Below the pieces are notes generated by a model. It did not search any database and was not told the origin of the DNA. It was given only the letters and a program-made list of their open reading frames with translations. From contig NZ_RQYL01000016.1 of assembly GCF_003860125.1 (NCBI RefSeq), positions 1 to 60,138 of the forward strand: a stretch of DNA of 60,138 bases. The letters are read 5' to 3'. The DNA is from Fretibacterium sp. OH1220_COT-178. Lineage in GTDB: Bacteria; Synergistota; Synergistia; Synergistales; Aminobacteriaceae. Every line of letters begins with the position of its first letter. The stretch's first letter is position 1. A program made the position numbers and the translations under genes. Below are positions 31,722-39,352 of this stretch, piece after piece.

Positions 31722-31750
31722 TTGACAAATTTCTGCTGAGGTGGTATTGT
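31722..31750 (+). promoter_or_regulatory. Sigma-70 promoter of the tyrosine phenol-lyase locus
   Basis: TTGACA at 31722-31727 and TATTGT at 31745-31750 with a 17-base spacer, preceded by an A-rich tract. Expected transcription start is near 31757, giving a leader of about 267 bases before the tpl start. Confidence 0.8.
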
Positions 31751-31761
31751 GTCCCACAATC

Positions 31762-31809
31762 GATCGGGAGGCCCTGCTCTCCCGGTTGGATGGGGGAGAC
31801 GCCCCGATC
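31762..31809 (+). other. 5' leader hairpin upstream of the leader peptide
   Basis: GATCGGG (31762-31768) pairs perfectly with CCCGATC (31803-31809), enclosing an inner CTCTCCC/GGGGGAG pairing. It begins close to the predicted transcript 5' end and ends just before the leader-peptide ribosome site, so it may stabilise the RNA or tune leader translation. Confidence 0.5.
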
Positions 31810-31824
31810 ACGGAGGTTGCGGAC

Positions 31825-31911
31825 ATGTTCACTTGTTTCGGCACGTGCGTCGTTCTGAATGCGTATTATTACTACGGATCTGAGCCCTTTGCGAGGAGGC
31901 TGGAGCCGTAG
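31825..31911 (+). CDS. Tyr-rich leader peptide of tyrosine phenol-lyase
   Basis: A 28-residue open frame with ATG at 31825 behind CGGAGG. It reads FTCFGTCVVLNA, then four consecutive Tyr codons (31864-31875), then GSEPFARRLEP and TAG. It ends 40 bases before an intrinsic terminator and 113 bases before tpl. The final Pro before the stop and the 12-residue distance from the third Tyr to that Pro resemble the Trp12-to-Pro24 layout of the tryptophanase leader TnaC. Four clustered codons for the amino acid that the downstream enzyme degrades are hard to explain by chance. Short size means it is normally unannotated. Confidence 0.75.
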   Translation: MFTCFGTCVVLNAYYYYGSEPFARRLEP

Positions 31912-31931
31912 TTTTCGGCGCGTGTGGAACA

Positions 31932-31994
31932 GGCCTCTAAAAACGTTCGCAAGAGGGCTCTTTACCGGACATCACGGTAAAGGGCCCTTTTTTT
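31932..31994 (+). terminator. Attenuator: terminator with competing antiterminator
   Basis: GGGCTCTTTACCG (31955-31967) pairs with CGGTAAAGGGCCC (31975-31987), 13 pairs with one G-U, extended by A-U pairs into a run of seven T (31988-31994). CCTCT at 31934-31938 can instead pair with AGAGG at 31952-31956, opening the terminator base. GAGGCT at 31896-31901, inside the leader-peptide gene, can in turn pair with GGCCTC at 31932-31937. This 1:2, 2:3, 3:4 arrangement is the classic attenuator design. Confidence 0.75.
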
Positions 31995-32023
31995 ATTCCA
32001 TCATCGTGAAGGGAGTTTTGGGG

Positions 32024-33472
32024 ATGAACGGACAGGTAAAGTTTTTTGGCGGCGAGGTCTTTCCGTTGGAGATGCACAAGGTGCGCATCGTCCAGAAGCT
32101 GACGCTGGTCCCGGTGGAGGATCGCCTTGCGGCTCTGCGCGAGGCGGGGTGCAATACGTTCCTTTTGAAGAACGACAAGGTCTTCCTGGACATGTTGACG
32201 GACAGCGGCGTCAACGCGATGAGCGACCGTCAGCTGGCGGCGATGATGACGGCGGACGACAGCTACGCGGGCTCCATGAGCTTCGAGCGCCTGAAGGCCG
32301 TTGTCGAGGACATCTTCGGCAAACCGTTCCTGTTGCCCGTCCACCAGGGTCGGGCGGCGGAGAACATCCTGGCCAGCGCCCTCGTCGGAAGGGGGAACGT
32401 CGTCCCGATGAACTACCACTTCACGACCACCCGCGCTCACATCGAGCGCAATGGCGGGCGCGTGGAGGAGCTGTTTCTGCCGGAGGCGCTGAATCTCGAC
32501 AGCGCCGATCCTTTCAAGGGGAACATGGACACGAAAGGTCTTGAGGCGTTGCTGAAGCGCGAGGCGGGCAACGTCCCGTTCGTTCGGGTCGAGGCCGGGA
32601 CCAACCTGATCGGCGGCCAGCCCTGGTCGCTGGAGAACCTGAGCGAGACGGCGGAGATCTGCCGTCGGCACAAGGTTCCGCTGGTCCTGGACGCCTCGCT
32701 GCTCGCCGACAACCTGTACTTCATCAAGACGCGGGAGGTGGCGCAGCGCGATGCCTCGATCCGCGAGATCACCCGGCGCATCGCCGATCTTTGCGACATC
32801 GTTTACTTCTCGGCCCGCAAGCTGGGCTGCGCGCGCGGTGGGGCGATCCTTACGGGCGACCGGGCCCTGTTCGAGCGCATGCAGCCATTGATCCCGCTTT
32901 TCGAGGGGTTCCTGACCTACGGAGGAATGTCGGTCCGGGAGATCGAAGCCCTGGCCGTGGGGCTCGAGGAGACGATGGATTTCGACATGATCCGCCATGG
33001 GCCGGAGTTCATCGGTTTTATGGCCGACGCGCTCCACGAGCGGGGGATCCCCGTGGTCCGGCCCGCCGGCGGGTTGGGCTGTCACCTGAACGCACGCGAA
33101 TTTCTGCCCCATGTCCCTCAGGAGCGTTACACCGCGGGAGCCCTCGCGGCGGCGGTCTTCCTGGCGGGGGGCATTCGGGGCATGGAGCGGGGCACGCTGT
33201 CGGAGGAGCGCAGGGAGGACGGAAGCGAGCGGCTGGCCGACGTGGAGTTGCTGCGCCTGGCCCTGCCGCGCCGGGTCTTCACGATGTCGCAGCTCAAATA
33301 CGCCGTCGACCGCATCCATTGGCTCTTCGAGAATCGGGAGCTGGTCGGCGGACTGAAGTGGGTGGAGGAGCCCAAGCTGCTGCGCTTCTTCAGCGGACGC
33401 CTCGAGCCGCTTGGCGACTGGCAGGAGCGACTCTGCGCGAAGTTTCGGGCGGATTTCGGCGACAGCCTGTGA
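32024..33472 (+). CDS. tpl: Tyrosine phenol-lyase
   Basis: Cleaves tyrosine to phenol, pyruvate and ammonia with PLP. ATG 32024 gives 482 residues; the frame is open further upstream through the terminator but that part is leader RNA. Family landmarks are LTDSGVNAMSDRQ (near 58-70), HQGRAAEN, GGQPWSL, the PLP Lys in SARKLGCARGG and YEPK-like EEPKLLRFFSGRL. FTTTRAHIERNGG and GMERG match tyrosine phenol-lyase better than tryptophanase (which has FDTTQ-type and VEIG-type sequence). The Tyr-rich leader supports tyrosine. Tryptophanase remains the main alternative. Confidence 0.82.
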   Translation: MNGQVKFFGGEVFPLEMHKVRIVQKLTLVPVEDRLAALREAGCNTFLLKNDKVFLDMLTDSGVNAMSDRQLAAMMTADDSYAGSMSFERLKAVVEDIFGKPFLLPVHQGRAAENILASALVGRGNVVPMNYHFTTTRAHIERNGGRVEELFLPEALNLDSADPFKGNMDTKGLEALLKREAGNVPFVRVEAGTNLIGGQPWSLENLSETAEICRRHKVPLVLDASLLADNLYFIKTREVAQRDASIREITRRIADLCDIVYFSARKLGCARGGAILTGDRALFERMQPLIPLFEGFLTYGGMSVREIEALAVGLEETMDFDMIRHGPEFIGFMADALHERGIPVVRPAGGLGCHLNAREFLPHVPQERYTAGALAAAVFLAGGIRGMERGTLSEERREDGSERLADVELLRLALPRRVFTMSQLKYAVDRIHWLFENRELVGGLKWVEEPKLLRFFSGRLEPLGDWQERLCAKFRADFGDSL

Positions 33473-36647: not shown

Positions 36648-37799
36648 CTACAGGTAACCGTTCTCCTTGAGGATGGCCTTGGCCTTTTCCACGTGCTTCG
36701 CCGGCATCTTGATGACGGGGCCGGTGCAGCCCATAGCGGACTCGGCGTAGATGTTGGCCTTCCAGAGGGCCCGTACCGCGTTCTCGATCTCCAGAACGTC
36801 GATGCCGTGCACCTCGTCGTCCGTGGGCTCCGCAGGAGGGGCCTTGACCTCCTCCATGCATTCCGCCTTGGGCGTCAGAGCCGCTATCTCGTCCTCCAGC
36901 CCCGCCCTCTTGGCGGCAGCCAGCTCGGCGGCCACCTTGTCCGGCAGCCCGCCGCCGACGACCGAGGCGGTGTAGGAGAGCGCGTTGGCGATCACCGGTG
37001 CGCCGGACGCGCGCGAGATGATGGACACGACGTTCCTCCAGCCCTCGCCGCAGGAGGGGCCGTAACCCCATCCCGTGGCCTCGTAGGATCCGCCCGTGGT
37101 GAAGGAGGAGAACATCTTCATCAGAACGTTGCCCGACAGCGTGTCCGTGACGCACACGTCCACGGCTCCGGCAAGGATGTCGTTGCCGCGCAGGACCGCG
37201 CCGCCGTCCTTGCGGACCGAGGCGCCGAAGGTGATGGGATACCCCTTCTCCTTCAGATGGGTGAGTGCGCGAAACACGGGCTGTGCCGTGTCCACGTTGA
37301 GGATGCCGACCGTCGGATTCTCAATGCCCATCGCCTTTGCGGTGGCGATTCCGTAGATCGCATTGCGCAGCATCGCCTCGCCCCGGACCGTGGCGGAGGT
37401 CCCGGTGGTCGAGGCCAGGATCATGGCCTTGCCCTTGCCCGGCGTCATGACGCGACCGATGGTGGTCACGCCCAGCGGAAAGGGGAAGTGGAGGGCGACG
37501 GCCCCGGCGATTCGGCCGTCCTTGAGCGCGGCCTCCAGAGTCGAGGAGATGTCCGCCTCGCAATCCGGGGTCTCGATCCACTCCAGGTCCTCGAACCCGG
37601 CGATACGCGGGCCGATCATGACGGGCTTGACGTTGCCGTAGGTCTCCTGGGCCAGGCGTGCACCGCGCGCCAGCTCCTCGGAGCCCAGTTCGCTGCCGGC
37701 GGCCATCAGCCCAATTTTTGCCTTGGGCCCGCCGCTTTTGGCCGCATCGATGATCTCGGCCAGGGCGGAGCCGACTATTTTCCTGATCTCGTCAGACAT
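36648..37799 (-). CDS. grdD: Glycine reductase component C, alpha subunit
   Basis: Works with GrdC to turn the Se-carboxymethyl group passed from GrdA into acetyl phosphate. The start is ATG 37799 (MSDEIRKIVGSALAEII); the frame is open upstream inside grdC but out of its frame. The 383-residue product has GNDILAGAVDVCVTDTLSGN near the middle, a PlsX-like fold signature, and Cys358 in SAMGCTGP near the C-terminus, matching the acetyl-accepting Cys described for the family. It is the last gene of the operon and ends at a strong terminator. Confidence 0.93.
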   Translation of the reverse strand: MSDEIRKIVGSALAEIIDAAKSGGPKAKIGLMAAGSELGSEELARGARLAQETYGNVKPVMIGPRIAGFEDLEWIETPDCEADISSTLEAALKDGRIAGAVALHFPFPLGVTTIGRVMTPGKGKAMILASTTGTSATVRGEAMLRNAIYGIATAKAMGIENPTVGILNVDTAQPVFRALTHLKEKGYPITFGASVRKDGGAVLRGNDILAGAVDVCVTDTLSGNVLMKMFSSFTTGGSYEATGWGYGPSCGEGWRNVVSIISRASGAPVIANALSYTASVVGGGLPDKVAAELAAAKRAGLEDEIAALTPKAECMEEVKAPPAEPTDDEVHGIDVLEIENAVRALWKANIYAESAMGCTGPVIKMPAKHVEKAKAILKENGYL

Positions 37800-37813
37800 G
37801 AGTTTCCGCCCCC

Positions 37814-39352
37814 TCAGTTCAGCTTTCCGGCGATTTCGGAGAGCGCCTCCAGGATCAGGGACTTGACGTCGTCCTTGCTGACGGCCCCGGCTGCCGAGGC
37901 ACCGCTGGGAGCTTCGATGATGAAGGAGGCCCCGTCGGCCAGATTCGTCAGACGGGCCAGGAACAGGCTGCCCTTGCCGATCACCATGGCGCGCTTCATG
38001 GAGCCGTCGCGGATGGCCTCGCAGGCGAAGCCGACGAACGGCACGCCCGAGGGGATGTGCCCCTGCGTGTGGGCGAAGCCCACCGTACCGTGCTTCTTGA
38101 TGAAGGCTTCCATGTCGGCCTTCTCGATGGCCTTTTTCATGACGGCCAGGGCCGCGATCATCTTGATGTTGGCCAGGGGCACGTCGCCGGCGCCGGCCGG
38201 AAGGGTGATCTCGGGGATATGAAGCTCGGCTGCGAACTTGTCGACGTCCGTGAAGGTCAGGCCCGCGGCCTGGAGCGGCTCGTAGACCAGCACGGAGGTA
38301 ACCGCCTGCGGCGCGGCGCCCGCGCCCACCGTGTGCTTGCCCAGGACGTCGAGACGCATGACCGGATTTTTCCCGTCGTCGGGGACCAGCAGGGCGGCGA
38401 AGCTTCCCATGCAATCCTCGAGAGCCAGCAGACCTTTCTTGACGTGGTCGCGGCTGTTCATGTAGAGCTTGGGGATGGATCCGCCCGCCACGACGACGCA
38501 GTTCTTGCGCGCTCCACTGGCGACCTGGCTGGCTGCGGCGATCATCGCGTTGACGGGCCCGGCGCAGAAGCCGCGCACGTCGCAGCCGGAGGCGTTGGTG
38601 CAGCCGGCGACCTCGGCGATGGCCTTGGCGAAGTTGCCGCCGGCCCTCTGGTTCATGTCGCCGGCGCCCTCCTCCGAGCACTCGATGATGAAATCGATGT
38701 CGGTGGGGGCCAGGCCGCTGTTCTTGATGAGGTGCAGCAGAGAGAGGACCCCCGAGGCCTTGTTGGCCAGGTTCTCCATCAGGACGTGAGCGAAGAGGCA
38801 GTCGTCCACCGCATGGCCGCTGCGAACGCAGCCCACGACTTTGCCGCCGAAACGCAGGTACTCGCCGTGGCGCTCCTTGACCTCGGCCTCGATCGTTGCG
38901 AGGTCCTGCATGTTTTTCGGACGCACCACGCGCTTGACGATCGACTCCGTGATCACGGGGTCCTGGGCCAGCTTGGCGCTGACCGCCTCGGCGAAACCCT
39001 TCTCCAGCCAAACGAGCTCGAACTCGTCGCAGGCCGCCATCAGGCCGAGGAACTCATCCTCCGGCATGATCTCCCCGAACTTGCCGTAGCGTTTCGCGTC
39101 GCCCAGACGGTTCTCGGTCCAGGGCGTCTTGGCGGCCTCGAACTCCTTGTAGCTCAGGCCTCCGATATAGGCCTGGTTGGGTGCAAACTGCATGGCCTGT
39201 TCGTAGGTCTGAAGGTGCTTGGGAAGGGAATCGACGAACTCCTTCTCCTTGCCCTCCCTGCGGGCGTGGTAGGGGGTGGTGCCGTAGTACATTCCCGTCT
39301 CAGGCATGTGGTTCAGACAATAGGCGTAACTTTTGATCCCTACAGTGGACAT
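37814..39352 (-). CDS. grdC: Glycine reductase component C, beta subunit
   Basis: Partner of GrdD in component C, shared by glycine, sarcosine and betaine reductases. The 512-residue product has a ketoacyl-synthase-III-like domain (SGCDVRGFCAGPVNAMIAAA near residue 250). ATG 39352 follows AAGGAGGAC. It lies 14 bases upstream of grdD and is separated from grdB by a terminator-like hairpin. Confidence 0.92.
   Translation of the reverse strand: MSTVGIKSYAYCLNHMPETGMYYGTTPYHARREGKEKEFVDSLPKHLQTYEQAMQFAPNQAYIGGLSYKEFEAAKTPWTENRLGDAKRYGKFGEIMPEDEFLGLMAACDEFELVWLEKGFAEAVSAKLAQDPVITESIVKRVVRPKNMQDLATIEAEVKERHGEYLRFGGKVVGCVRSGHAVDDCLFAHVLMENLANKASGVLSLLHLIKNSGLAPTDIDFIIECSEEGAGDMNQRAGGNFAKAIAEVAGCTNASGCDVRGFCAGPVNAMIAAASQVASGARKNCVVVAGGSIPKLYMNSRDHVKKGLLALEDCMGSFAALLVPDDGKNPVMRLDVLGKHTVGAGAAPQAVTSVLVYEPLQAAGLTFTDVDKFAAELHIPEITLPAGAGDVPLANIKMIAALAVMKKAIEKADMEAFIKKHGTVGFAHTQGHIPSGVPFVGFACEAIRDGSMKRAMVIGKGSLFLARLTNLADGASFIIEAPSGASAAGAVSKDDVKSLILEALSEIAGKLN

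Follow-up and report, generated by a model that had tools for sequence, protein, structure and literature searches.

A conserved Tyr-codon leader, probably a ribosome-mediated attenuator, precedes a divergent gene of the tyrosine phenol-lyase/tryptophanase family in Synergistota

Introduction

A leader open reading frame (ORF) with a run of Tyr codons, followed by an intrinsic terminator and then by a gene of the tyrosine phenol-lyase (TPL)/tryptophanase (TnaA) family, raises the question of what signal the leader receives, whether the gene is turned on when tyrosine is plentiful or when it is scarce, and what this says about the reaction of the encoded enzyme. The locus in question lies in the window, as we call the whole stretch of 60,138 nt of Fretibacterium sp. 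OH1220_COT-178 DNA that was analyzed. Here we compare it with homologous loci from Synergistota and other phyla, and consider the regulatory mechanism and the enzyme in turn.

Results

The leader region contains, all on the forward strand, a σ70-type promoter (31722 to 31750; TTGACA and TATTGT separated by 17 nt, with an extended TG), a GGAGG Shine-Dalgarno sequence (31812 to 31816) and a 28-codon ORF (31825 to 31911) that encodes MFTCFGTCVVLNAYYYYGSEPFARRLEP and carries four tandem Tyr codons, TAT TAT TAC TAC, at 31864 to 31875. These are followed by an intrinsic terminator, composed of a hairpin (31951 to 31991; MFE of −27.6 kcal/mol) and a run of seven T (31988 to 31994), and by the controlled gene (32024 to 33472), which begins with an ATG at 32024 and encodes a 482-aa β-eliminating lyase belonging to a third clade of the TPL/TnaA family. 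The promoter, the leader with its four Tyr codons and the seven-T terminator had been correctly located in the initial annotation of this DNA. At a Tyr frequency of 3%, four tandem Tyr codons within 28 have a chance probability of ~2e-5, and a pattern search of the window's own genome found TAYTAYTAYTAY only three times, the other two occurrences not being leaders. Searched with Rfam covariance models, the window leader matched neither the T-box (RF00230) nor any other Rfam family, and a search of a phage collection gave no match.

Loci for comparison were collected by searching the whole genomes of 188 Synergistota and by scanning GTDB contigs. All eight Synergistota homologs possess an upstream ORF with a run of three to six Tyr codons and a terminator in place; exact TTGACA with a spacing of 17 to 18 is found in seven of the eight, and GGAGG or a similar sequence precedes the leader ORF in most. 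Apart from the window, the Synergistota leaders are MHVSGISFVILNAYYYYGTRPFARRLEP (L008, the window's nearest relative), MRRTGTAFVAAAYYYYRTEPFARRSEL (L078), MLKSFVAGFVYAYYYYYESGPVRMPGL (L003), MACVFSFDFANAYYYYETGSFRRPGL (L033), MSSVISVISIVFVYVYYYESGPLRVPGL (L004), MSSAFRAIPSGLYYYYRYRKLDL (L006) and LLKNFVNAVFTYYYYYYERGFFFERTVL (L007). A Tyr-run leader thus precedes the ortholog not only in eight lineages of Synergistota but also in two Chloroflexota, where it reads MRKNTFAYVYYYYYPFHSKQSNWTQRLRQ (L057) and MIPNKPCSYYAYYYPGHPRHPVGTAVV (L058). TAT and TAC are interchanged freely within the runs, and the run is the only feature common to all of the leaders. Their C-termini vary, with a terminal Pro in two of the eight Synergistota leaders (window and L008) and the endings PGL, SEL, LDL and TVL in the others. 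Because the Tyr run is shared while its codons are swapped and the C-terminus is variable, the signal appears to lie in the Tyr codons and not in an arrest peptide whose C-terminus is invariant.

L058 has the Tyr leader and no clear antiterminator. In L057, within the region 155 to 44 bases upstream of the gene, the terminator hairpin and the part of the leader that follows the Tyr run share the palindrome GTCCAATTGGAC, which appears to be a self-complementary route to an antiterminator. The leader of L085 (G579), MLQHYRLHFSFCRNFPTYYYL, lies 184 to 121 bases upstream of its gene, with three Tyr codons adjoining the stop codon; no U-rich terminator was seen behind this YYYL leader, which perhaps acts by translational attenuation and which was excluded from the counts for want of a clear terminator. 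A close homolog, L002/L031, was left unscored because its contig stops at the expected leader position, terminating in a TTTTTA repeat 106 bases upstream of the gene.

Folding and covariation identified two conserved helices, 31871–31877:31906–31912 and 31882–31894:31947–31960, both of which had been missed in the initial annotation. The first, a protector helix, pairs ACTACGG (segment 1, 31871 to 31877), which holds the last Tyr codons, with CCGTAGT (31906 to 31912), the end of the leader ORF including its stop codon. Its counterparts are CTACAG:CTGTAG in L078, the 12-bp TTACGAGTCTGG:CCGGGCTTGTAA in L003 and TTACC:GGTAA in L006, where the motif is retained though it is no longer a stop codon, and the helix is present in the MFE structure predicted without a ribosome for all eight Synergistota leaders. 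The second is the outer helix of an antiterminator, whose 5′ strand (segment 2) is GAGCCCTTTGCGAGGAGGCT (31882 to 31901), as supported by permutation, state folding and covariation, and whose 3′ strands, defined by state folding, span 31932 to 31960 and consist of GGCCTCT (31932 to 31938), TCGC (31947 to 31950) and AGAGGGCTC (31952 to 31960). The last of these doubles as the 5′ arm of the terminator (segment 3). Across the loci, the antiterminator segment begins ~4–7 nt past the Tyr run (~15 nt in L006) and has the terminator 5′ arm as its partner, the core pairing being GAGCCC:GGGCTC in the window, GGACC:GGTCC in L003, L004 and L006, GGATCC:GGGTCC in L033 and GGGTTCTTTTTTGA:TCAAAAAAGAGCCC in L007. 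A pairing proposed earlier as a competitor of the antiterminator, GAGGCT:GGCCTC (31896–31901:31932–31937), does occur; it makes up the inner portion of the antiterminator itself, and its effect should therefore be opposite to the one originally suggested.

Because duplex energies, compared with those of shuffled leader segments, carry little statistical power at a single locus, we relied on pair counts and on a permutation test that asked how well each leader segment fits its own terminator arm relative to those of other species. The fit to the own arm was the better one, with 0 of 20,000 permutations as extreme for 10 loci and values of 0.0001 for the Synergistota and 0.0014 for six diverse loci. 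In the pair counts, based on rows excised and aligned manually from the same sequences that had suggested the helices, the 6-bp core of the protector is 100% paired with both-side changes at three pairs, that of the antiterminator is 94.4% paired with both-side changes at three of six pairs, and for neither helix did any of 500 shuffles reach the observed covariation score. Comparison with upstream regions of other Synergistota, in which the Tyr leaders are conserved and the stems covary, thus establishes the anatomy and conservation of the element, the covariation of both helices and the specificity for tyrosine, and bears out the original view that a tyrosine-sensing attenuator controls this TPL-family gene. 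Promoter and terminator counts in the window alone, by comparison, were no better than those in shuffled sequences, as might be seen if a Tyr-rich upstream ORF merely lay by chance beside the preceding gene's own, unrelated terminator; such a coincidence is extremely improbable when eight Synergistota lineages conserve the element with covarying helices and Tyr T-boxes replace the leader in other phyla (see below). We consider the observation real because leader and terminator are conserved in Synergistota, not because of single-genome counts.

To examine the direction of the switch, we placed a ribosome on either the first Tyr codon or the stop codon and folded the RNA located 3′ of it. In the first of these positions, and before the terminator 3′ arm has been made, the probability of the antiterminator was 0.47–0.88 in the eight Synergistota (−36.0 kcal/mol for the stalled state of the window), as against 0.00–0.02 in the second position and 0.01 for the window without a ribosome. 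On the contrary side, L033, L006 and L007 were modelled with the antiterminator even without a ribosome, and per-locus folding was only modestly better than that of shuffled spacers (p of 0.005–0.21; 0.0005 combined, for the Synergistota). In the full-length RNA at equilibrium the terminator prevails in nearly all states, and the switch must therefore be kinetic, as in known attenuators; attenuation of trp and his has been modelled as a kinetic decision (PMC1183508).

Taken together, these features make it very probable that the window element is a ribosome-mediated tyrosine attenuator of the trp/phe/his type, which sequence comparison predicts to be on at tyrosine starvation. Transcription would begin at the promoter at 31722 to 31750, and a ribosome would translate the Tyr-rich leader. 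When charged tRNA-Tyr is scarce, the ribosome would stall at the Tyr codons and break the protector helix (31871–31877:31906–31912), leaving 31882–31901 free to pair with 31932–31960 as the antiterminator, and polymerase would read into the lyase gene because the antiterminator takes up the terminator 5′ arm. When tyrosine is abundant, the ribosome would reach the stop codon and cover or pass the antiterminator segment, allowing the terminator to form; with no ribosome on the leader, the protector helix would form and transcription would terminate as well. We infer that stalling at the Tyr codons takes place in vivo, and that the switch operates in this direction.

The initial annotation had assigned the opposite polarity, with a TnaC-like peptide that arrests at the stop codon with tyrosine bound, opens the terminator and induces a catabolic TPL. 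Like TnaC of tryptophanase, the leader peptide does precede a TPL/TnaA-family gene, and in two cases (window and L008) it ends in Pro, but the final residue and the C-terminal sequence vary, and residue conservation is confined to the Tyr run, which is maintained with synonymous changes. The activation of enteric tpl genes through TyrR (PMC1173090) also speaks for this scheme; at the present locus, however, a ribosome at the stop codon would remove the antiterminator segment, the covarying segments favoring the terminator there and the antiterminator at the Tyr codons, and the Tyr-specifier T-boxes on homologs have the polarity opposite to that proposed. The CCTCT:AGAGG pairing invoked in the earlier scheme is possible in the window and partly in L008, but it is absent from six of the eight Synergistota leaders and was dropped as not conserved. 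Tyrosine-bound arrest is thus very unlikely, and we rejected the TnaC-like peptide on the grounds of conservation and geometry: the element lacks conserved C-terminal Pro or arrest residues, has an intrinsic terminator and is predicted to respond in the opposite way to TnaC. By every feature tested, it is a ribosome-mediated attenuator, and neither a TnaC-like element nor itself a T-box.

Outside of Synergistota, a T-box (RF00230) identified with Rfam lies directly 5′ of 13 homologs, all 13 with the Tyr specifier UAC. Their scores range from 56 to 131 bits, nine of them over the gathering score of 93: L043 (111 bits), L044 (114), L041 (90) and L093 (88), along with L098, L099, L102, L104, L105, L107 and L108 (106–131 bits) from one order of Clostridia and L100 and L101 (56–60 bits) from that same order. 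T-boxes of the transcriptional type permit read-through when the tRNA is uncharged, and therefore these homologs are likewise predicted to be on at tyrosine starvation. Two unrelated RNA mechanisms are hence predicted to turn on the same lyase gene when charged tRNA-Tyr is short.

Judged from its sequence, the lyase itself falls outside the curated definition of a TPL. It scores 406 bits against the TPL equivalog TIGR02618, below the cut-off of 720.7, and fails the cut-offs of both tryptophanase equivalogs. In a tree of 73 proteins its clade stands apart from TPL and tryptophanase with 100% SH-aLRT support, so that the classical TPL of the initial annotation gives way to a member of a separate, third clade. 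Relatives are 73–89% identical within Synergistota and 53–66% identical in other phyla, whereas TPL and tryptophanase are well separated from it (~35–42% identity). The fold is settled by sequence matches to solved TPLs. In the numbering of Citrobacter freundii TPL, the clade retains the PLP lysine K257 as well as D214, R404, Y71 and N185. The phenol-site residues T124, M379, R381 and F448, in place of which tryptophanases have Asp, Val/Ile, Ile/Val/Leu and His, are kept in every Tyr-controlled homolog and are altered in just one derived subclade. On the other hand, R217L, K256R, H343L and F346H occur in every clade member compared, unlike all TPLs and tryptophanases compared. R217 and H343 are important for TPL catalysis, and with their loss the reaction of the lyase could be something else. 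In the derived subclade (L109–L121, from one order of Clostridia), T124 is replaced by Gly or Cys and F448 by Asn, Gln, His, Ser, Leu or Met; neither a Tyr T-box nor a Tyr leader was found on these genes, TyrA is absent from 13 of 13 of the genomes, and a further change of substrate is likely.

Chorismate synthase, prephenate dehydratase, TyrA and Phe hydroxylase are all missing from the genome of the window, which is 99.96% complete. In a first sample of 43 genomes, TyrA was absent from 11 of 13 with the element versus 2 of 30 without it. This contrast was not repeated in a second sample, 24 genomes of one order of Clostridia selected to test it, in which TyrA was absent from three of nine genomes with a T-box and from 13 of 15 without one. 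Phylogenetically independent pairs were few, at 4 to 0 (p of 0.125). Because the second sample weakened the first contrast, we rejected the absence of TyrA as proof of enzyme function and retain it as suggestive. Operon context was likewise discarded as a clue, the lyase gene standing mostly alone among the loci examined. In G092, one of two Tyr-leader genomes that retain TyrA, a convergent tyrA (prephenate dehydrogenase) gene is found ~0.9 kb downstream of the lyase gene (contig 47, L079; 4139–4984 in gene orientation).

Discussion

The element resembles trpL, pheL and hisL in having a ribosome binding site and a short leader ORF with tandem codons for one amino acid, placed in the 5′ strand of the protector, an intrinsic terminator before the gene, a covarying antiterminator that uses the 5′ arm of this terminator, and a predicted off state without translation. 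It differs from them in its signal, tyrosine, in its phylum, Synergistota, and in its target, a TPL/TnaA-family lyase instead of a shikimate-pathway enzyme. A tyrosine-specific ribosome attenuator has apparently not been described so far: our search of the open-access literature found none, the nearest case being the AroR attenuator located before aroF in Corynebacterium glutamicum, which is also ribosome-mediated and has a Tyr codon in its leader. The AroR run is Phe-Tyr-Phe, unlike the purely Tyr run of the window, and AroR is reported to respond to Phe, not Tyr (reviewed in PMC11802643). Like the Tyr T-boxes of tyrS and those of the tyrosine operon and Phe-4-hydroxylase in the B. cereus group (PMC2494555), the window element would sense the charging of tRNA-Tyr, although through a translating ribosome and not by direct tRNA binding. 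Tyr T-boxes turn on tyrosine-supplying genes, and they are the same class of element that is found on the 13 homologs of the window lyase.

Control that is on at starvation, opposite to that of known TPLs, suggests that this branch of the family makes tyrosine rather than degrading it. The window lyase shares with the TPLs of C. freundii and E. herbicola the fold family, the PLP lysine and the phenol-site residues, but it is ~37% identical to them, belongs to a separate clade and carries R217L/K256R/H343L/F346H; known tpl genes are activated by TyrR, while the window lyase is predicted to be induced by starvation. Since a lyase that destroys tyrosine would be useless at starvation, we infer synthesis from phenol: the enzyme may supply tyrosine from phenol and a three-carbon amino donor (serine, or pyruvate plus ammonia) in the reverse of TPL catabolism, a proposal that we consider about as likely as not. 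Such phenol salvage would be the counterpart of indole salvage by TrpB. An attenuator that is on at starvation would also be compatible with an enzyme that acts on another aromatic compound, by releasing or converting it, or that yields some other product needed at that time. The four substitutions present in every member would fit this alternative, as would the presence of TyrA in several element-bearing genomes and the lack of an operon partner that reveals the pathway, but wherever Tyr control persists, so do the residues that bind the ring of phenol in TPL, and many carriers, the window's genome included, cannot make tyrosine via the shikimate route. We regard it as a reasonable though somewhat doubtful alternative.

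Returning to tyrosine synthesis, we tentatively extend the proposal, with slightly greater reserve, to the third TPL/tryptophanase clade as a whole, which may represent a widespread phenol-salvaging tyrosine synthase, induced by tRNA-Tyr shortage through an attenuator or T-boxes depending on the phylum, and serving bacteria without a shikimate route such as the host of the window. In different phyla, two RNA mechanisms that are unrelated to each other subject one lyase clade to control by tRNA-Tyr, and this shared regulation strongly implicates proteins that are now named tryptophanase or tyrosine phenol-lyase in the supply side of tyrosine metabolism. If the enzyme does form tyrosine from phenol, a protein amino acid would be made without the shikimate pathway; this would explain how some aromatic auxotrophs live, and many genes would need to be reannotated.

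Elsewhere in the window, on the reverse strand, a glycine riboswitch (RF00504; 43596 to 43704) and a bacterial SECIS element (RF01990; 39734 to 39771) were found near reductase-like ORFs (36648 to 39352), which probably constitute a putative selenoprotein glycine/sarcosine reductase operon of Stickland metabolism.
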